Shown one piece after another: positions 55,032 through 63,293 of a stretch of DNA of 64,000 nt. Both the position numbers and the translations under genes were made by a program. Under the pieces are notes generated by a model that was not told where the DNA came from, ran no database searches, and worked only from the letters and a program-made list of their open reading frames with translations. This DNA comes from Paenibacillus sp. FSL R7-0345 (GTDB lineage Bacteria > Bacillota > Bacilli > Paenibacillales > Paenibacillaceae), in NCBI RefSeq assembly GCF_038595055.1, contig NZ_CP152002.1:1532501-1596500 (forward strand), written 5' to 3'. Positions within the stretch are counted from its first letter, which is position 1. The number at the start of each line of letters is the position of its first letter.

Positions 55032-55097
55032 GTACATGCACTTCTGGGCACTAACCCACATACAATAAAAGGACCATGAACCCGTAGCTCTCATCAT
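55032..55097 (+). repeat. 66-bp duplicated sigK upstream sequence (left copy)
   Basis: It matches 62486-62551 with about two mismatches, from GTACAnGCACTTCTGGGC to CTCATCAT. It is followed by a truncated sigK copy, so the promoter flank of sigK has been duplicated along with the start of the gene. Confidence 0.9.
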
Positions 55098-55099
55098 TT

Positions 55100-55328
55100 G
55101 ATTAAAGAGTTAACGCTGCTAGTGTCATATGTAAGAAATAACGCTTTTCCACAACCACTCTCCGAGCAGGATGAAAGCAAATTACTAGGTATGATGGCAG
55201 AGGGTGATGCCAAGGCTAGAAATCTGTTAATTGAACATAACCTGCGCTTAGTCGTACACATAGTAAAAAGGTTGTGGGCACGATACGATGTAAATTGGTT
55301 TAGAAGATTTAATTCTGGGACTGTTTAA
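55100..55328 (+). pseudogene. Truncated sigK copy (N-terminal fragment)
   Basis: Bases 55100-55269 match intact sigK at 62624-62794 by eye at a high level ([20 protein letters not shown], then [12 protein letters not shown]). Relative to intact sigK, 72 bp holding the ribosome binding site, the TTG start and the first ten codons are deleted. The frame diverges after HIVK, at about sigK residue 67, into an unrelated tail (LWARYDVNW) that soon stops. It lacks regions 2.3-4, so it cannot be a working sigma factor. Some codons differ from the intact gene, which suggests an old duplication or import from another strain. Confidence 0.9.
55270..55294. repeat. 25-bp direct repeat, left copy
   Basis: GGTTGTGGGCACGATACGAT and the next five bases match 22 of 25 positions with 62092-62116. 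The repeat starts exactly where similarity of the pseudogene to sigK ends. The two copies bracket the RiPP operon at 6.8 kb distance and may mark the ends of an inserted segment. Confidence 0.65.
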
Positions 55329-55744: not shown

Positions 55745-55858
55745 ATGAAGGAAGAAGTTAAACTGCAAAAAGAAGAGCCGATGTTTCTGGCAGAACTGGA
55801 ACCTGTAAGAAGATGTTCGATGGATGAAGAAGCAACCTTTGGGCCTGTTGCAAACTAG
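55745..55858 (+). CDS. RiPP precursor peptide 1, 37 residues
   Basis: A short gene with GGTGAGG before its ATG. The product begins MKEEVKLQKEEPMFLAELEP and ends with VRRCSMDEEATFGPVAN. The acidic and hydrophobic leader is followed by a dibasic RR, then a short tail with one Cys and a C-terminal Asn. It is followed by a second almost identical gene and by radical SAM, MccB-like and peptidase genes, so it is the likely substrate of these enzymes. The C-terminal Asn is the residue on which microcin C maturase MccB acts. The cleavage site and final product are not known. Confidence 0.85.
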   Translation: MKEEVKLQKEEPMFLAELEPVRRCSMDEEATFGPVAN

Positions 55859-55902
55859 ATTTTATTAATTACTACATAAAATTTAAAAGGATGGTGAAAA
55901 AA

Positions 55903-56016
55903 ATGAAGGAAGATATTAAATTGCAAAAAGAAGAACCAATGTTTCTGGCTGAAATGGAGCCAGTAAGAAGATGTTCCATGGATGAGGAAGCAACGTTTGG
56001 ACCTGTAGCAAACTAA
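55903..56016 (+). CDS. RiPP precursor peptide 2, 37 residues
   Basis: A tandem duplicate of the preceding gene, 44 bp downstream, with a similar GGTG-containing site. It differs from copy 1 at only three residues (E4D, V5I, L18M), all in the leader. The last 19 residues (EPVRRCSMDEEATFGPVAN) are identical, while the codons differ at about seven silent positions there. That pattern means the tail is under strong protein-level constraint. A hairpin terminator follows it and separates it from the enzyme genes. Confidence 0.85.
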   Translation: MKEDIKLQKEEPMFLAEMEPVRRCSMDEEATFGPVAN

Positions 56017-56022
56017 AGAAAG

Positions 56023-56052
56023 AATAGGGCCGAATATTCGGCCCTATTTTTA
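56023..56052 (+). terminator. Terminator or attenuator after the precursor genes
   Basis: AATAGGGCCGAATATTCGGCCCTATT is a perfect 13-bp inverted repeat followed by TTTTAT. It sits 7 bp past the second precursor and 20 bp before the radical SAM gene. It probably lets some transcripts read through, giving excess precursor over enzymes. Confidence 0.85.
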
Positions 56053-56073
56053 TATAGTCATGAGGAGGAAAGC

Positions 56074-57423
56074 ATGCATCCATACTTGAAGAATAATGTC
56101 GTGCTCGTTGAAGGGCCTAAAGCCTTCGGTGTTTATGATCTGAACGAAGGACGTTTTCATCGTATTAATAAAGTTGCTGGTTCTATCCTTGAAGGGCTTC
56201 AAGGAACAAAGGCTTTGAATACATATTCTGATAATGAAATAAACTTTTTGCTGACAGCTAAGGAAAAAAAACTAATTGAATTTCAAGATGAGGAACGCTA
56301 CCGGGAACAAACAAAGCTGCAGGACGTCACCCGTTCATTCCGGCCAATACGATTTGCATGGATTGAAGTGACGTCAATGTGTAATCAAAAATGCCTGCAT
56401 TGTTTTTTAGGAAATGATTTAAATCGTTATACACATCAAGCTAAAGAAAAGATATTCGAGCATATCGATACACTTGTTGAAGCGGGAGTGTCCCAAATTG
56501 TAATTAGTGGTGGGGAACCTTTACTTCATCCAAATATAGAAGAAATATTATTGTATGCCGCAAGATCACCTATTTCAGTTACTTTGCTTACCAATGGCAC
56601 AAGCCCAAAAGCGCTTTCCATTGCTACGCTGTTAGCGGGTTTAAGCATAAATGTTAAAATCCCTTTACTAGGATGGAAAGAAAGTCATGATCAAATGACT
56701 GCTTTACGAGGCAGTTTTAGAAAGGCTATTAAAACGATTCATCATTATATACGTTCGGGAGTAGCGATCGAGCTAGGAACGACGGTTACCTCGCTTAACA
56801 TAAATGATATCGCGAAAATTCGGAAATATGCGAATCGGGTACGATTGGCTTTAGAGGTGAGTCCTATTTTTGCTACTGGATGTGCTAAAGATAATAAGGA
56901 AATATTGTTAGCCCATTCTCAAAAAACATTTACTCAGGTATGCCGAGAAGACAAAAAGAAAGCCGTTGTTAACCTGAGAGAATTCCCTGCGCCTAAACGA
57001 TTCATTCAGCCTAAGCAACCAACGGATTATCAATCAGTGGACTTAAGGAATTTCCTTACTGATTGTCATGAGTGTGGTCAGAAAATCACAGCAATAACGT
57101 CGAGTGGAGAAGTTACGCCTTGTCTGCTTCTCAGAGGCCCAGCATTTTCAATGGGCAATGTGAATGAGCATCCTTTAGCTGATCTACTCACCCCTAAGTT
57201 TCCCTCCCGTAAAGAATTTGACGATAAATTGAAGCTTTCTAATGTTATTGACTGCGATAAATGCGAAGCACGTTTTGTATGTAAAGCAGGAGGATGTCCG
57301 GCTACTTCACAAGCCTTAAAAGGAACAATACACGTTAAAAATCCGTTATACAGTAAGTGTTTTTATCTGGATGAGGATAAAGATTTAAAACAAGAGAAAA
57401 TACTAGAGATTGTTAAGGGTTGA
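56074..57423 (+). CDS. Radical SAM/SPASM peptide-modifying enzyme
   Basis: A 449-residue protein with GAGGAGG before the ATG. Residues 1 to about 75 resemble a PqqD-type leader-binding (RRE) domain, judged from the small basic/hydrophobic pattern (KAFGVYDLNEGRFHRINKVA). The radical SAM cluster motif is CNQKCLHC, with C103, C107 and C110. SAM-binding GGEP lies in IVISGGEPLLHP. The C-terminal part has many cysteines (DCHECG, CLLLRG, CDKCEARFVCKAGGCP) typical of a SPASM domain with auxiliary Fe-S clusters. It would modify the precursor peptide, for example by C-S or C-C bonding at its Cys. The modification is not predictable. Confidence 0.88.
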   Translation: MHPYLKNNVVLVEGPKAFGVYDLNEGRFHRINKVAGSILEGLQGTKALNTYSDNEINFLLTAKEKKLIEFQDEERYREQTKLQDVTRSFRPIRFAWIEVTSMCNQKCLHCFLGNDLNRYTHQAKEKIFEHIDTLVEAGVSQIVISGGEPLLHPNIEEILLYAARSPISVTLLTNGTSPKALSIATLLAGLSINVKIPLLGWKESHDQMTALRGSFRKAIKTIHHYIRSGVAIELGTTVTSLNINDIAKIRKYANRVRLALEVSPIFATGCAKDNKEILLAHSQKTFTQVCREDKKKAVVNLREFPAPKRFIQPKQPTDYQSVDLRNFLTDCHECGQKITAITSSGEVTPCLLLRGPAFSMGNVNEHPLADLLTPKFPSRKEFDDKLKLSNVIDCDKCEARFVCKAGGCPATSQALKGTIHVKNPLYSKCFYLDEDKDLKQEKILEIVKG

Positions 57424-57427
57424 TACT

Positions 57428-58642
57428 ATGAATAAAAATATATGGCTACTTCTTCTGGCAAAATGGACATCTAATTTCGGGACGCATTTTCATATGCTTG
57501 CTTTTCCGTTATTGGTATATGAAAAAACACAGTCAGTCACTCTGCTATCTTTGACGTTTATAGCTGAAACTTTACCTTGGCTTTTAATAGGCCCGGTTAT
57601 TCCCCATCTGATAAAAAACAGATTTTCTCCTAAAGCGATTCTGCTATATTGTGACTTTTTTAGGTTCATCATTGTTCTAGGAACAATATATTTCATTGAT
57701 CATACTTGGATTGTACTTAGTTTGATTTTCATATTAGGTACGCTGAATTCTATTCATGGTTCGTTTAGAACGAGTATTGTGAAATCCAATACAGATGACA
57801 TTACATTAAAAACGACTCTAGGCATCTCACTAGGAATAGATGATGTAATCAGCATGATTGCCCCGGTTTTAGGAGCTCTTATGATCTCAAATGGAGTATC
57901 ATCCTTTAATCTGCTTTTGCTGGACGCTTTAACCTATTTAATGAGTGCGATCTTACTTATTGGTGTCAAAAGTGAGAGATATACCGGTGAAGAGGCAACT
58001 CAAGAGAAGCAGTATTTTGTACGTGAGGTGACCAGAGGGTTTCATATTATCTGGAATCATCCTCAGCTAAGATGGCTAGCCACTATTGAAGGAATACGCT
58101 CATTGGTCGAAGGAATCTCCATCCCGTTGTTAATGCTCTATGTAGTGGATGTCTTATCCAGTTCCGATGCTACATTTGCCTGGTCTAGGGCTTTATCTGC
58201 AGCCTGTGCAATCCTTGCGTCACTGTTTTACATTAAGTGGAGTTTAAAAATATCAACAGAGAAGTTTACCAAGGTGGGTACAATTATTTTAATTGCCTCA
58301 ATGGCTATTTTTTCGGTAATTCATCACACCGTTTTGTTTTTTATAGCCTCTGCATTATTGGGCTTAGGAATGGCCATTCGTCAGCTTGTATCTGAAAATC
58401 TTCTTATTCAAGTTACACCGGCTAGAGATCTCCCAGAAGTTGCCTCTGCTTTCAATGCAGCAATTTCAAGCTTTTATGTTATAGGTTACGCTATATCCAT
58501 TTTACCGGAGCAGGGAATTCCTGTTACTTATTTCTTTGCGCTCAGTGCAGTTCTCCTAATTGCAGGGCATGTTCTTACCGTTGGAAAACGTTCTATAAAC
58601 GATTCAGAGGAGAGAAGCAATGGAACCCAAGTTAACCTTTGA
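57428..58642 (+). CDS. MFS transporter, likely exporter and self-immunity pump
   Basis: A 404-residue polytopic protein with about 10-12 membrane helices, beginning NKNIWLLLLAKWTSNFGTHF. The start at 57428 is chosen as the first ATG after the radical SAM stop (57423), with AAGGG before it. Both length and role fit MccC-type exporters of microcin C, which move the toxic product out and protect the producer. It overlaps the next gene by 23 bp, so the operon is tightly packed. Confidence 0.85.
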   Translation: MNKNIWLLLLAKWTSNFGTHFHMLAFPLLVYEKTQSVTLLSLTFIAETLPWLLIGPVIPHLIKNRFSPKAILLYCDFFRFIIVLGTIYFIDHTWIVLSLIFILGTLNSIHGSFRTSIVKSNTDDITLKTTLGISLGIDDVISMIAPVLGALMISNGVSSFNLLLLDALTYLMSAILLIGVKSERYTGEEATQEKQYFVREVTRGFHIIWNHPQLRWLATIEGIRSLVEGISIPLLMLYVVDVLSSSDATFAWSRALSAACAILASLFYIKWSLKISTEKFTKVGTIILIASMAIFSVIHHTVLFFIASALLGLGMAIRQLVSENLLIQVTPARDLPEVASAFNAAISSFYVIGYAISILPEQGIPVTYFFALSAVLLIAGHVLTVGKRSINDSEERSNGTQVNL

Positions 58643-59987
58643 TTTAGATAGGTTGTTATTAAACGGCAATCAAATAAAGAAGATTACCCGTAATATATTT
58701 AAGGAGCAAAAAGTAAAAATATTTTATGCTATTAAAGCCAATTCAGATGAGCCGGTTCTTTCTTCTGTATTTAAACAAGGTATAGGAGCAGAGGTTCTTT
58801 CACTGAGAGAACTAGAATTAGTTCCAAACCATGTTGAAGTAATTGTAAACGGTCATTCAAAAGGCACGGCACTTATTGAAGCTGCATTAAAAAGAGAGTC
58901 CTGTACTTTTATGGTTGAAAGTGTAGAGGAACTTAGGCGAATTGAAGAGTATATAAAGCTTGCTGGAATATCTATAAAACCTAATATTGGAGTTCGAGTA
59001 TCCGTTTCAGACAAAGCTAGAATCGGGTTACCATTAACGGATTTGCATTTATTAGATGAATGGATCAAACCAGAGTCTACCCTTCGGATTAACACTCTTC
59101 ATTTGCATGCTGGATGGAATGTAAAAGAAGACGAAAAGGTTCATGAGATGCTGAATCGGATGAACATTATGCATGAATATATCCAGAAGAAGGGTGGCAG
59201 GATTACATGCTGGAATTTTGGAGGATCATTTGCTGAGGCTTCAAGTTACCCGCAACAGTTGCAGAAAAGACTCCAGCTCTATCACCGACTTCTTCCCGAG
59301 AATGTATCAGAAGTGTATTTTGAGCCAGGCAGATATTTAGTAGGAGATTGCGGTAAATTAGAAGCGCAAGTGATTGAAGTGAGAAGTAATCAGACCATTA
59401 TTAATTCAGCTACATATGGATATATGCTTTCAGGTGCTACGGCTAAGTTGAAATATGTACTAAAAGGAGAAAAAAATGAAAAAAGTTTGTTGTTAAATGA
59501 TGCTGAGTCTGAAAACCAAACAGTATTATCTGGAATTTGGCCAAGTGAAAATGATTGCTTAAATGTTAGTTATTCCGGGCGTTCTTTGGAAATTGGAGAC
59601 ACCATTTATTTTGAGAATATGGGGGCTTATCTTGCCAGCTCTATGCGCTCTCTAAGTGATGAAGAATTGCTCACATACCAATACCAAAGTAAGCTCATAA
59701 ATCTCTGGCAGAATGCAGACGATATGCAGCAATCTTTATTGCTTCGCTTCTGGTGCTTCAACATCAGGCAATTTAAAACACTTCCCAAAAAATTAATTGA
59801 GTTAGAAAAAATATTACAGTTAATTTCTTTGGAATTTCAACCAGGGACTTTGTACACGGAGAATGAGGTGAATGAAGTTTTACTCCAATACAATCTTGAT
59901 TTTTGTACGTTAAGACGTGATCTGGTTGAGCAAAAATTCCTTCATAGACAGGAAGGAGCGAAAGTAGTCTATGAAAGAATCGTGTAA
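58620..59987 (+). CDS. PLP-dependent decarboxylase fused to a DUF2087 domain
   Basis: A 455-residue protein. Residues 1 to about 355 form a type III PLP fold of the ornithine/diaminopimelate/arginine decarboxylase group. The PLP lysine is Lys39 in FYAIKAN. CWNFGGSF and EPGRYLVGDCG bind phosphate and cofactor. SGIWPSENDCLNVS is the active-site motif of the second subunit, and ENMGAYLASSM closes the barrel. Residues about 385-452 match DUF2087 (KTLPKKLIELEKILQLI, YTENEVNEVLLQYNLDFCTL, RRDLVEQKFLHRQEG). In E. coli MccE the related decarboxylase domain is fused to an acetyltransferase, so the DUF2087 fusion is unusual. AGGAGAG lies before the ATG. Confidence 0.85.
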   Translation: MEPKLTFDLDRLLLNGNQIKKITRNIFKEQKVKIFYAIKANSDEPVLSSVFKQGIGAEVLSLRELELVPNHVEVIVNGHSKGTALIEAALKRESCTFMVESVEELRRIEEYIKLAGISIKPNIGVRVSVSDKARIGLPLTDLHLLDEWIKPESTLRINTLHLHAGWNVKEDEKVHEMLNRMNIMHEYIQKKGGRITCWNFGGSFAEASSYPQQLQKRLQLYHRLLPENVSEVYFEPGRYLVGDCGKLEAQVIEVRSNQTIINSATYGYMLSGATAKLKYVLKGEKNEKSLLLNDAESENQTVLSGIWPSENDCLNVSYSGRSLEIGDTIYFENMGAYLASSMRSLSDEELLTYQYQSKLINLWQNADDMQQSLLLRFWCFNIRQFKTLPKKLIELEKILQLISLEFQPGTLYTENEVNEVLLQYNLDFCTLRRDLVEQKFLHRQEGAKVVYERIV

Positions 59988-61017
59988 CTCCATTATCTTG
60001 GCTCCGTATGTAGCTGTAGGATACAGTCAAGGAATCTTAAACTTGGGATTTGGTTCTCTAAACGTAAAAGTGACCGAAAAAAATCTTCAACTGATTGTTT
60101 TGGAGTTATGCGCATTTTTTAAAAACGCCCATGAAGAAGAGGAAGCGTATAAACTTCCTTTTGAAAAAGAACTCATTCATGAAGGTCTGTCTATACTTAA
60201 AAGCAAAAGCTATTTGGTGAGGGACTCCGTATGGAAAGAAGTTCCTGTGTTTTTTCAACGGATGTCGTTGGCCCTTCTTTCTGAGGGTATAGATCCGGTA
60301 CAAGCTTTTAAGAATATTTCAACAAAAGAGATTATGATTATGGGATGCGGAGCGATTGGGACTTCAATGGCAATGCTTTTGGCTACTATAGGGATAAAGC
60401 GGTTAATTCTAATCGATGAAGACCTCTATGATGAGAGTAACACAGGAAGAAGTACTCATATCACGCCTAGTATGATTGGAAAGAATAAAGCACAGGCCCT
60501 AAGAGATATAGTAATAGAAAAAAATCCTTTAATAAATGTAGAGGCTCACTCTAAAAAGCTTGAACAGGATGTGGAATATATTCTTCCTTCTTGTGGTTTT
60601 GTTATTTTAAGTGCCGATTCTAGTTATCTACTTAAAACAGTAAACGCGATTTGTGTCAGGCAAAAGATTCCGTTTATGCAGGTAGGGTATGCCCACGATC
60701 AAGCGGTTTGGGGTCCCCTTGTTGTACCAGGAGAAACAGGCTGCATTGCTTGCAGAAGTCATACATTGCAGCCATCATCCTTAAACGAACGTGAAAAGGA
60801 GCTTTTAGCCTTTATTAACACAGGTTATATTGCCCCGGCACCGTCATATCTGGCACAATTTTCGGTTAGCTTAGCAATAGAGGATCTTGTGCGCTTTTTT
60901 ACGAATCGAAGAGCAAGGGCCTTAAATCATCAAATTGCAGTATCTATGCATGATTTACAGGTTCAAAATTTAGCATATCATTCATCGGAACATTGTTTCT
61001 GTCAAACGCGTTATTAG
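59971..61017 (+). CDS. MccB-like E1-type (ThiF-family) adenylyltransferase
   Basis: A 348-residue protein of the length of MccB. Residues 1 to about 115 form an N-terminal peptide-binding region. The nucleotide fold follows with GCGAIG (125-130), LILIDEDLYDESN (Asp149, Asn157), Arg160 and the GKNKAQ lysines. Beyond it come VILSADSSYLL, the ICVRQKIPF block, VGYAHDQAVWGPLVVPGETG and CIAC, with CFC at the extreme end forming a four-Cys zinc site. This order (SAD, CVR, GY..D.AV.GPL.VPG.TGC..C, terminal C.C) matches microcin C7 MccB as I know it. MccB uses ATP to turn the C-terminal Asn of a peptide into a peptidyl nucleotide. The substrate here should be the VAN-ending precursors. Confidence 0.85.
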   Translation: MKESCNSIILAPYVAVGYSQGILNLGFGSLNVKVTEKNLQLIVLELCAFFKNAHEEEEAYKLPFEKELIHEGLSILKSKSYLVRDSVWKEVPVFFQRMSLALLSEGIDPVQAFKNISTKEIMIMGCGAIGTSMAMLLATIGIKRLILIDEDLYDESNTGRSTHITPSMIGKNKAQALRDIVIEKNPLINVEAHSKKLEQDVEYILPSCGFVILSADSSYLLKTVNAICVRQKIPFMQVGYAHDQAVWGPLVVPGETGCIACRSHTLQPSSLNEREKELLAFINTGYIAPAPSYLAQFSVSLAIEDLVRFFTNRRARALNHQIAVSMHDLQVQNLAYHSSEHCFCQTRY

Positions 61018-61024
61018 AATAAGG

Positions 61025-61930
61025 ATGTCTATGGTGGGGACCAAATTGATGCCAATTACTAATGATAATATTAATCGAGAAGAAACATCCCGTTTAACCT
61101 TACAGTATTTAAATGAACTGTCGAATGAAATTGGTCCAAGGGCAGCAGGATCAGAAAATGAACAAAAGGCAGCTGACTATATTATTACTAAATTTAAGGA
61201 GTTTGGATACAATCCGCATATCCAGCCGTTTACTTCTGAAGTGCAAGACAATAAAATAATAAGCTCCAGTAATATTGAGATTATTAAAAAGGGCATTTCT
61301 TCAACTGAAATAATGATTGGCGCACATTATGATTCCGTCGAAGTGGGTGAAGGTGCGGATGATAATGCATCTTCAATTGCTGTTATGCTTTATATAGCTG
61401 AAAAACTAAATAACTGGAAAACTTATTATACGATTAGACTTGTAGCTTTTGGAGCTGAAGAAGCTGGATTAAAAGGTTCAAGATTCTATGTATCCCAAAT
61501 GCGAGATAGCGAAATTCAGAAGACAATGTTAATGATAAATATGGATAGTCTTATTGCTGGAGATCATATGTACGTTTATGGTTATGGTTGGAGAACAACA
61601 GAGATAGGGGGACAGCTAGCTAAGATTTTTAATGATTATAGGACTAGCATCTATACAGAAATAAATGAGTCTGTTGCTGGAGATTGGAGTGATTACGCTC
61701 CATTTAAAAGAGCGGGGATACCTTGTCTTCATTTAGAGGCTACAAATTGGCAGTTGGGCGATAAAGATGGCTATACGCAAGTTGATGAATCATTAGGGGT
61801 TATAGGGAAAATATGGCACACAAAGTATGACACGATTGATTACATCAGTCGAACTTTTCCAGGCAGGATAGAGAACCATCTTCTGGTCTTTTCTAGGCTG
61901 TTACATGATATCATGACCAAAATAAAGTAA
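61025..61930 (+). CDS. M28-family metallopeptidase, cytoplasmic
   Basis: A 301-residue zinc aminopeptidase-like protein with all M28 ligand motifs: GAHYDS (His101), GADDNASS (Asp112), FGAEEAGLKGS (catalytic/metal Glu pair), NMDS (Asp174) and HTKYDT near the C-terminus. There is no signal peptide, unlike most M28 enzymes. In this operon it could trim the leader or cut inactive product as self-immunity, a job done by the unrelated MccF in microcin C. Starts at 61025, 61031 and 61049 are all possible; the ribosome-binding context is weak. A terminator follows. Confidence 0.85.
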   Translation: MSMVGTKLMPITNDNINREETSRLTLQYLNELSNEIGPRAAGSENEQKAADYIITKFKEFGYNPHIQPFTSEVQDNKIISSSNIEIIKKGISSTEIMIGAHYDSVEVGEGADDNASSIAVMLYIAEKLNNWKTYYTIRLVAFGAEEAGLKGSRFYVSQMRDSEIQKTMLMINMDSLIAGDHMYVYGYGWRTTEIGGQLAKIFNDYRTSIYTEINESVAGDWSDYAPFKRAGIPCLHLEATNWQLGDKDGYTQVDESLGVIGKIWHTKYDTIDYISRTFPGRIENHLLVFSRLLHDIMTKIK

Positions 61931-61994
61931 CAGGAATAATTCAATACACTGAAGCCAGAACTTCAAATGAACAGAAAAAGATAGATGAAGCAAC

Positions 61995-62033
61995 AAAAGA
62001 CAGCCGATTATAAGAATCGGCTGTCTTTTGTTT
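61995..62033 (+). terminator. Terminator of the RiPP operon
   Basis: AAAAGACAGCCGATT and AATCGGCTGTCTTTT form a perfect 15-bp stem with a 5-base loop, followed by GTTT. Confidence 0.9.
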
Positions 62034-62485: not shown

Positions 62486-62551
62486 GTACAGGCACTTCTG
62501 GGCACTAACCCACATACAATAAAAGGACCATGAACCCGTAGTTCTCATCAT
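62486..62551 (+). repeat. 66-bp sigK upstream sequence (right copy)
   Basis: It matches the left copy at 55032-55097 with about two mismatches and precedes intact sigK by about 40 bp, so it likely contains part of the sigK control region. Confidence 0.9.
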
Positions 62552-62591
62552 AGACCGGTTTCATTGTACATGTGCGGGAGGTGTCGCCAAG

Positions 62592-63293
62592 TTGCCAGGG
62601 ATCATAAGTACAATCGCGCTGCTGATTAAAGAGTTAACGCTGCTGGTGTCGTATGTAAGAAACAACGCTTTTCCACAACCACTCTCCGAGCAAGACGAAA
62701 GTAAATACTTAGGCATGATGGCAGAGGGTGATGCTAAAGCCCGGAATCTATTAATAGAGCATAATCTGCGCTTGGTAGCCCACATAGTTAAAAAATTCGA
62801 TAATACTGGGGAAGACATGGAGGACCTGATCTCCATTGGCACCATCGGATTAATCAAAGCCATTGAGAGCTATCGGCCGAACAAGGGTACTAAGCTCGCC
62901 ACTTTTGCGGCCCGATGTATTGAAAACGAAATCCTAATGCACCTTCGGTCATTGAAAAAGACGCGTAAGGATGTCTCCCTCCACGATCCAATTGGGACAG
63001 ACAAAGAGGGGAACGAGATCACGTTGATTGATATACTTGGCTCCGAGACAGATGATGTGATTAAGGAAGTTGACTTAAAAATCGAGAAGAGCAAAATCTA
63101 CCGCAACCTCGATATTCTCGATGAACGGGAGAAGGAAGTCGTCGTCGGCCGTTTCGGCCTGGACACCGGCGGGGAGGAGCGGACGCAGCGGGAGATTGCG
63201 AAGGATCTGGGGATCTCGCGGAGTTATGTGTCGCGGATAGAGAAAAGAGCGCTGATGAAGCTTTATCATGAGTTTTATAAGGCAAAGCGATGA
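62592..63293 (+). CDS. sigK: Sporulation sigma factor sigma-K (pro-form)
   Basis: A 233-residue sigma-70-family factor. The TTG start has GGGAGGTG 8 bp upstream. The first 20 residues form the pro-sequence ending LTLLVS, with [12 protein letters not shown] following as in B. subtilis pro-sigma-K, where SpoIVFB cuts at this point. Region 2 ([34 protein letters not shown]) and region 4 ([20 protein letters not shown]) are intact. It directs late mother-cell transcription in sporulation. The gene is not split by a skin-type element, but a truncated copy lies 7.4 kb upstream, with a RiPP operon in between. Confidence 0.95.

Follow-up and report, generated by a model that had tools for sequence, protein, structure and literature searches.

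The window analysed here, a 64,000-nt stretch of the Paenibacillus sp. FSL R7-0345 genome in which positions count from the first letter, carries a locus of seven plus-strand genes (55745-62028) predicted from their sequences to form a compact set for making a modified peptide. Two 37-codon genes for precursor peptides are followed in the list of open reading frames (ORFs) by five larger genes, all in one direction, that encode a radical S-adenosylmethionine (SAM) enzyme, a major facilitator superfamily (MFS) transporter, a pyridoxal phosphate (PLP) enzyme fused to DUF2087, an E1-like enzyme and an M28-family metallopeptidase. The sequence of the E1-like enzyme places it in the MccB lineage; MccB, from the microcin C (McC) pathway, is the model for an E1-like fold turned peptide-antibiotic synthase. 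Our preferred reading, to which we give a probability of about 0.4, is that this enzyme activates the C-terminal Asn of the precursors and that the peptide is then finished differently from microcin C. An earlier, sequence-only reading had proposed a microcin C-like Trojan-horse operon. Its genes were all found where it had placed them, and its view of an MccB-lineage locus for an Asn-ending ribosomally synthesised and post-translationally modified peptide (RiPP) has held up, whereas its parallels to nucleotide transfer, MccE and MccC have not.

Descent and altered pocket of the E1-like enzyme

The E1-like enzyme (59971..61017, 348 aa) was placed by structure-chain search, protein search and trees. 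It matched Pfam ThiF at 1.2e-31 and, among all solved chains, MccB at 1.6e-29, with the next non-MccB family at 2.1e-10; its identity to E. coli MccB (plasmid MccC7-H22) was 28% over 261 aa. The protein search yielded 12 proteins including the query, two of them at 56-59% identity and a Nocardiopsis relative at 31%, and a scan of genome contigs for relatives gave 23 loci (8 non-actinobacterial, 15 actinobacterial). PaaA, from the pantocin A system, was rejected as the closest kin, as it scored far below MccB in the chain search (1.4e-6); it is absent from the trees described below.

Two trees of 40 rows each were built. The first contained 8 of the 23 scanned loci (L006, L007, L008, L014, L020, L024 and two of the 15 actinobacterial ones) together with hand-picked ThiF-like loci and proteins P0002-P0012; L005, with its MccB-like reading split over two ORFs, and the incomplete L022 were left out, and own_L003, which had a very long branch, was dropped from the second tree. 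The IndF row was obtained through a published C-terminal motif (locus L093, precursor end EDTTNWYFI). Two MccB rows carry labels of our own: L029, a locus from the window's class which we take to be L. johnsonii-like from the MHRIMKN peptide ahead of its MccB-like gene, and L030, presumably B. amyloliquefaciens-like.

In both trees, the window protein and P0002-P0006 formed a clade (support 100/100) on a long stem (~1.2 changes per column). This clade nested in a 24-row MccB set (100/98) with the E. coli, H. pylori and L. johnsonii-like enzymes, which places it in the MccB family by phylogeny. IndF fell outside this set, and a single clade of IndF and the window clade was rejected by the approximately unbiased (AU) test (p 0.010), a rejection tempered by the very long IndF branch (2.54). 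The MccB-like call of the sequence-only reading was thus borne out: the protein grouped with MccB rather than with the ThiF/MoeB-like rows or IndF, and the grouping with ThiF/MoeB or other families that the reading had named as telling against itself was not seen.

We compared 26 chosen E. coli MccB positions across 23 rows, comprising 6 of the clade, 9 of McC type (L008, L024, L014, L011, E. coli, H. pylori, the L. johnsonii-like and B. amyloliquefaciens-like rows, and Borrelia) and 8 other ThiF-like proteins; residue numbers in this comparison follow E. coli MccB. The clade retains the adenylation-core positions G124, N154, R157, K170 and D214. In all six clade rows, N236 is replaced by Q or S, N295 by A or V, and R322 by Q. 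Q158, the neighbour of R157, is S or C in the clade; all 17 outside rows, IndF and ThiF included, have Gln. All four residues are unchanged in 9 of 9 McC-type rows and in 3 further mcc-type rows. In the IndF row, N295 and R322 are replaced and N236 is gapped. Hence the E1-like fold, the ATP site and the N-terminus (LAPYV...GxGSL) appear to have been retained, unlike the part common to McC enzymes.

These replacements are evidence against assuming an N-P bond, not proof. At residue level the nucleotide transfer foreseen by the sequence-only reading fails to find support, since N236, N295 and R322 are replaced throughout the clade while unchanged in the nine McC-type rows; peptidyl-nucleotide chemistry is possible on this evidence but not favoured by it. 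Because the clade lacks the McC-type residues N236, N295 and R322 (a feature that we drew from the 9 rows and the 3 further ones) and an N-P bond is predicted at most, we do not place the locus, on its sequence, within the microcin C family. Its precursors do carry the C-terminal Asn of that family, and its operon an exporter.

Work on other E1-like RiPP enzymes touches the same positions. In a passage of PMC12250964, an Arg, a Lys and an Asp are named as ATP/Mg residues of EnfB, and these probably match the Arg, Lys and Asp of the kept adenylation core. IndF Q167, which by our own alignment occupies the position of MccB Q158, is described in part of PMC12150305 as lying near the alpha-phosphate in a model and as losing only little activity when changed to Ala. 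Among the relatives of the window enzyme, P0005 retains the adenylation core but has none of the cysteines found at E. coli positions 257, 260, 343 and 346.

Precursor peptides and partner enzymes

The first precursor gene (55745..55858) encodes the 37-aa peptide MKEEVKLQKEEPMFLAELEPVRRCSMDEEATFGPVAN and the second (55903..56016) a 37-aa peptide with three residue differences (E4D, V5I and L18M), all conservative. The pair is a 143-nt tandem duplication, 86% identical in DNA, with a purine-rich stretch (AAGGATGGTG...) ahead of each gene, and both peptides end in ...FGPVAN. The copies differ at 14 coding nucleotides, 11 of them synonymous and 3 in amino-acid-changing codons, where ~22 synonymous stand against ~89 nonsynonymous sites, so that silent sites make up only about a fifth. 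Because 11 of the 14 differences are silent and residues 19-37 show no amino-acid change at all, the genes look to be under selection as peptides rather than chance ORFs. Each peptide has one Cys, Cys24 in both copies, and no Trp. The sequence-only reading had set the long leader outside the classical pathway. Long precursors ending in Asn have precedent: excerpts of PMC6495379 describe such precursors of 17-56 aa in one MccB clade and a 42-aa Yersinia precursor with a product trimmed to 11 aa.

A hairpin with a T-run (56020..56051, -21.7 kcal/mol, z -6.4) lies between the precursor and enzyme genes and is attenuator-like. From the radical SAM gene to the M28 gene, neighbours overlap or sit 4 or 7 nt apart (taking the ATG at 57428 as the MFS start), and the set closes after the M28 gene with a terminator-like hairpin and T-run (61996..62028, -20.8 kcal/mol, z -7.1), as the sequence-only reading had recognised. 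A consensus terminator scan listed neither hairpin on the plus strand; it returned 12 terminator-like sites against 4.5 expected, one of which is the first hairpin read on the minus strand. A figure legend in PMC6495379 marks a terminator between mccA and mccB of E. coli, an arrangement that the putative attenuator behind the precursors resembles.

The PLP-DUF2087 protein (58620..59987, 455 aa) is a fold-type III enzyme by Pfam and alignments (Orn_Arg_deC_N 1.2e-18, DUF2087 8.3e-15), and its DUF2087 domain (59772..59954; Pfam residues 385-445) is a predicted winged helix (AlphaFold2 pLDDT 88.9). Pro308, invariant in 10 of 10 rows of the family, replaces the decarboxylase Cys; it aligns with the Cys of diaminopimelate decarboxylase at low posterior confidence (about 4 of 10) and with that of E. 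coli MccE at better confidence (about 8). Where the diaminopimelate and ornithine decarboxylases have their Cys motif, this protein reads WPSEND, and it differs from them further in its C-terminal winged-helix DUF2087. A structure of a related enzyme in which Ser replaces the Cys (9cpz) is described in its title as holding pyridoxamine phosphate (PMP) and an aldehyde. The family profile scored MccE at 74 bits and diaminopimelate decarboxylase at 83 bits, and so the MccE parallel drawn in the sequence-only reading is not specific. With Pro in place of Cys and no closer kinship to MccE, a PLP decarboxylase of MccD/MccE type was rejected.

The PLP-DUF2087 relatives P0015, P0016 and P0018 have longest contigs (7665, 4504 and 73098) equal in size to those of P0002, P0003 and P0004, respectively. 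Because these sizes are equal, we infer that the PLP-DUF2087 and MccB-like genes probably share a contig for 3 of the 5 close relatives of the window enzyme. A further PLP-DUF2087 gene, P0017, comes from Thermoanaerobacterium.

The radical SAM/SPASM enzyme (56074..57423, 449 aa) carries CxxxCxxC at residue 103 and eight Cys between residues 331 and 429 (Pfam Radical_SAM 1.4e-18, SPASM 6.5e-7). Its best PDB relative is SkfB (1.2e-12), a thioether-forming enzyme; that the window enzyme makes a thioether from the single Cys of the precursor is our guess. No match at 1e-25 was found in 298 other genomes sampled from the class, and each of the 25 best of 88 NCBIfam matches fell well short of its cut-off (StsB, for instance, reached 85.6 of 625 bits). 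A PqqD-like N-terminal domain that could serve as a RiPP recognition element is suggested by eye only; for residues 1-90, Pfam returned nothing relevant and the PDB no match.

The transporter (57428..58642, 404 aa) is confirmed as an MFS protein (MFS_1 6.3e-14; TIGR00900 1.6e-34, below its cut-off), as the sequence-only reading had it, but the parallel to MccC that came with that call finds no backing, as no alignment to E. coli MccC rose above chance. The M28 metallopeptidase (61025..61930, 301 aa; Pfam Peptidase_M28 1.8e-37) shows no evident signal peptide by eye and contains motifs that we take to be metal ligands; most of its PDB relatives are named aminopeptidases or peptidases. Leader trimming would be its natural role, with immunity as an alternative.

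The absence of MccD and MccF noted in the sequence-only reading holds for the operon: no MccD was recognised among the seven genes, nor was there a match in the genome at 1e-5 in a search run without a positive control. It does not extend to MccF in the genome as a whole, where an MccF-like S66 peptidase is encoded elsewhere (G000:C1:3878806-3879780; 32% to E. coli MccF, 1.8e-38). From its sequence, this peptidase could be an immunity factor or a plain LD-carboxypeptidase.

A proposed pathway and its competitors

Alongside the observed gene content, MccB descent, residue changes and equal contig sizes of the two partners, we infer the following chemistry. Given the duplicated genes and the hairpin behind them, the precursors would be made in excess over the enzymes. 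The radical SAM/SPASM enzyme would then modify the core, most likely by tying Cys24 to another residue. Because G124, N154, R157, K170 and D214 are kept, the MccB-lineage enzyme is expected to adenylate the Asn37 carboxylate while its N-terminal LAPYV region holds the peptide. Attack by the Asn side chain would then probably turn the acyl-adenylate into a succinimide, a step that also belongs to the first half of MccB catalysis. The second half, in which the nucleotide is added, has probably been lost or altered, given the clade-wide replacement of N236, N295 and R322. The PLP-DUF2087 enzyme, seemingly linked genetically to this MccB branch, would probably supply or trim an amine-bearing C-terminal group, presumably by altered chemistry because the decarboxylase Cys is Pro, and its winged-helix domain may hold a peptide or a nucleic-acid-like ligand. 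Finally, the M28 enzyme would probably shorten the peptide from its N-terminus, and the MFS protein would export the product. More tentatively, the locus could represent a new RiPP class grown from microcin C, in which an MccB-derived enzyme still activates the C-terminal Asn but adds no nucleotide to it and works with a PLP-winged-helix enzyme that has lost the decarboxylase Cys, so that a radical-SAM-crosslinked peptide receives a non-nucleotide C-terminal warhead.

Several points weigh against a different finish, beyond the long IndF branch and the uncertain Pro308 alignment with diaminopimelate decarboxylase. Support for where the clade belongs among the MccB subgroups is weak (82-89), and the tree rows are without EnfB, GrcB and PaaA. 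The McC-type residues are not wholly confined to McC-type rows: of the 8 other ThiF-like rows, the Pantoea one shares N236, L033 shares both N295 and R322, and a row from the same genome as the window shares R322; loss of N236, N295 and R322 may only alter the choice of substrate or base. The precursors end as McC precursors do, which is expected if the McC reaction is fully kept. A C-terminal Asn is by itself weak evidence, given that 3 of 68 window ORFs of at least 150 aa, real or not, end in Asn, and no relatives of the precursors were found outside this genome. For P0005 and P0006, no PLP-DUF2087 contig of equal size was seen, and the shared contig of the other relatives rests on the size match.

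A classical peptidyl-nucleotide Trojan horse, in which a nucleotide is added onto Asn37, the PLP enzyme decorates the product and the M28 enzyme cuts the leader, is a doubtful though serious competitor. It would account for the MccB descent, for a C-terminal Ala-Asn like that of the E. coli mccA reading frame and for the MFS pump in the operon, and both the long precursors and the hairpin behind them have the counterparts in PMC6495379 described above. It sits poorly with the replacement of N236, N295, R322 and Q158 across the clade and with a PLP enzyme that lacks the Cys and is not specifically MccE-like; nor is the MFS protein MccC-like, and the MccD search, which had no positive control, gave no match.

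We consider it unlikely that the E1-like enzyme is instead a macrocyclase, with Cys24 (as a thiolactone) or another internal nucleophile capturing the activated C-terminus and the radical SAM enzyme adding a second change. GrcB, IndF and EnfB are reported precedents for such capture (for GRC, in the portion of PMC12250964 consulted), and GRC-type clusters join a ThiF-like cyclase with radical SAM enzymes (same source). The single Cys is the same in both precursor copies, IndF shares the changes at N295 and R322 and the gap at N236, and an excerpt of PMC13255007 records that, with a peptide whose last residue is Gly, thiols supplied to the reaction can trap the acyl-adenylate of E. coli MccB. 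Yet the clade lies inside MccB and not with IndF, an Asn C-terminus would be needless, and there is a single radical SAM gene. Coupling of a PLP-made or PLP-trimmed amine to the C-terminus by the MccB-like enzyme, giving a C-terminal amide, is improbable, as the decarboxylase Cys of the PLP enzyme is Pro and no amine was identified, despite the apparent MccB-like/PLP gene pair and the amidation of an activated C-terminus with available amines that a section of PMC12250964 reports for EnfB.

Comparison with known systems places the locus between several of them. With microcin C of the E. coli, chlamydial, Nocardiopsis and Helicobacter types it shares an MccB-family E1 enzyme, a precursor ending in Asn, an MFS pump and, through MccE in the wider pathway, a fold-type III PLP domain. 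It differs in its duplicated 37-aa precursor, its radical SAM and M28 genes, the lack of MccD, the MccE acetyltransferase and MccF in the operon, the replacement of N236, N295, R322 and Q158, and a PLP enzyme with DUF2087 and without the Cys. The long-precursor McC systems of Yersinia and Bacillus are alike in having a precursor that ends in Asn and needs trimming (17-56 aa in the part of PMC6495379 cited above); however, no carboxymethylation gene was recognised among the seven here, and L030, the presumed B. amyloliquefaciens-like row, fell outside the 24-row set to which the window protein belongs.

GRC-type RiPPs, as described in a section of PMC12250964, likewise pair a ThiF-like enzyme with radical SAM chemistry and have a precursor of similar length (39 aa) and one transporter, but they feature two radical SAM genes, a stand-alone RiPP recognition element (RRE) gene and a C-terminal Cys. 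The window locus has one radical SAM gene, no recognised stand-alone RRE gene, a C-terminal Asn, and PLP and M28 genes; membership in the GRC type was rejected on the single radical SAM gene and the Asn. The indolylamide RiPPs of IndF combine an RRE with an E1-like enzyme that acts at the C-terminus (PMC12150305, in part), much as is predicted here, but membership was rejected for this type too, with an E1 enzyme in a different clade and no Trp in the precursor.

Titles and abstract openings of the open-licence literature yielded no description of this exact gene set, in agreement with the sequence-only reading, which knew of no such system. Its ThiF-like and radical SAM pairing is nevertheless already known from the GRC type (PMC12250964, as excerpted), and the same excerpt mentions in general terms ThiF-like RiPP enzymes near radical SAM, decarboxylase and PLP genes in Enterococcus and Streptococcus. 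Such a sister lineage, with the adenylation core kept and the McC-common residues dropped, offers a natural experiment on the role of those residues; given its apparent tie to an unusual PLP enzyme, it is also a place to seek an undescribed C-terminal peptide modification. It also makes one question concrete: whether a nucleotide is added (+329/+305 Da), water is lost (-18 Da) or the peptide ends in some other way.

Related mcc-like loci and the sigK insertion

Among the 8 non-actinobacterial loci of the contig scan, 5 had a heptapeptide ending in Asn ahead of the MccB-like gene: MNTISKN (L005), MNCELRN (L007), MNTITTN (L008), MNSVVRN (L014) and MGDSMAN (L024). These five are mcc-like loci in Chlamydiae and other Gram-negatives. 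L006 begins just ahead of the gene, L022 was covered by one scan only, and L020 gave no heptapeptide, with several other ORFs ending in Asn (6-47 aa). By Pfam, an MFS gene lay behind the MccB-like gene in all six loci tested (L006, L007, L008 [below the cut-off], L014, L022 and L024), GNAT was present in four (L005, L006, L008 and L024) and an S66 peptidase of the MccF family in three (L005, L006 and L020). Of 14 actinobacterial loci scanned out of 15 (all except L026), 13 had no ORF ending in Asn ahead of the MccB-like gene, and L025 had only longer ones. Part of PMC7157772 names Nocardiopsis kunsanensis as carrying an mcc-like cluster; the Nocardiopsis genes scanned here had no precursor ending in Asn ahead of the MccB-like gene.

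The link to sigK made in the sequence-only reading was substantiated, as a second copy of the sigK 5' part lies at the opposite end of the operon. The left border of the insert (55032..55269, plus strand) repeats the upstream region and 5' part of sigK, matching 62486-62793 at 97% over 66 nt and 86% over 171 nt, and the right border holds an intact sigK-like sigma factor gene (62592..63293, plus strand; Sigma70 r2 and r4) with up to 98% identity to relatives. The GC content of the insert, 35-39%, is lower than that of its surroundings (46-49% upstream, 42% immediately downstream). At a distance of 9.7 kb beyond the intact gene there is also a 3' piece of sigK (98%; G000:C1:1605487-1605999). 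Extra 3' sigK pieces were present in 6 of 20 relatives searched, and in 2 of 4 inspected (G161 and G231) a 5' piece precedes the intact gene with other cargo between. sigK therefore appears, from these sequences, to be a recurrent site of insertion or rearrangement in the genus. The MccB-like gene had no match at 1e-25 in 393 other genomes of the family, and is thus present in 1 of 394; horizontal gain at the recurrent sigK site is the simplest reading.

Several relatives carry sigK fragments beside the intact gene (L087-L090), with the 5' piece ending near codon 67 and the 3' piece starting near codon 63. Between the 5' fragment and intact sigK of G231 (L088, 8551-10500) lies a gene for a 649-aa AAA ATPase with an OLD-like TOPRIM domain, possibly a defence gene, and in G161 an integrase-family gene (L090, 3249-4025; PHROG 1 and 216) adjoins the 5' fragment. 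Just past the right end of the window (L086, 983-11567), the sigK 3' fragment is flanked by ORFs of 1336 aa (with a carbohydrate-binding module) and 1539 aa (with RHS repeats), as well as by a separate RHS-repeat fragment. A public contig with the operon (P0001 and P0013) is 7,464 nt long, close to the repeat-to-repeat interval of 7,454-7,524 nt, which would fit either an assembly break at the sigK repeats or a unit able to circularise.

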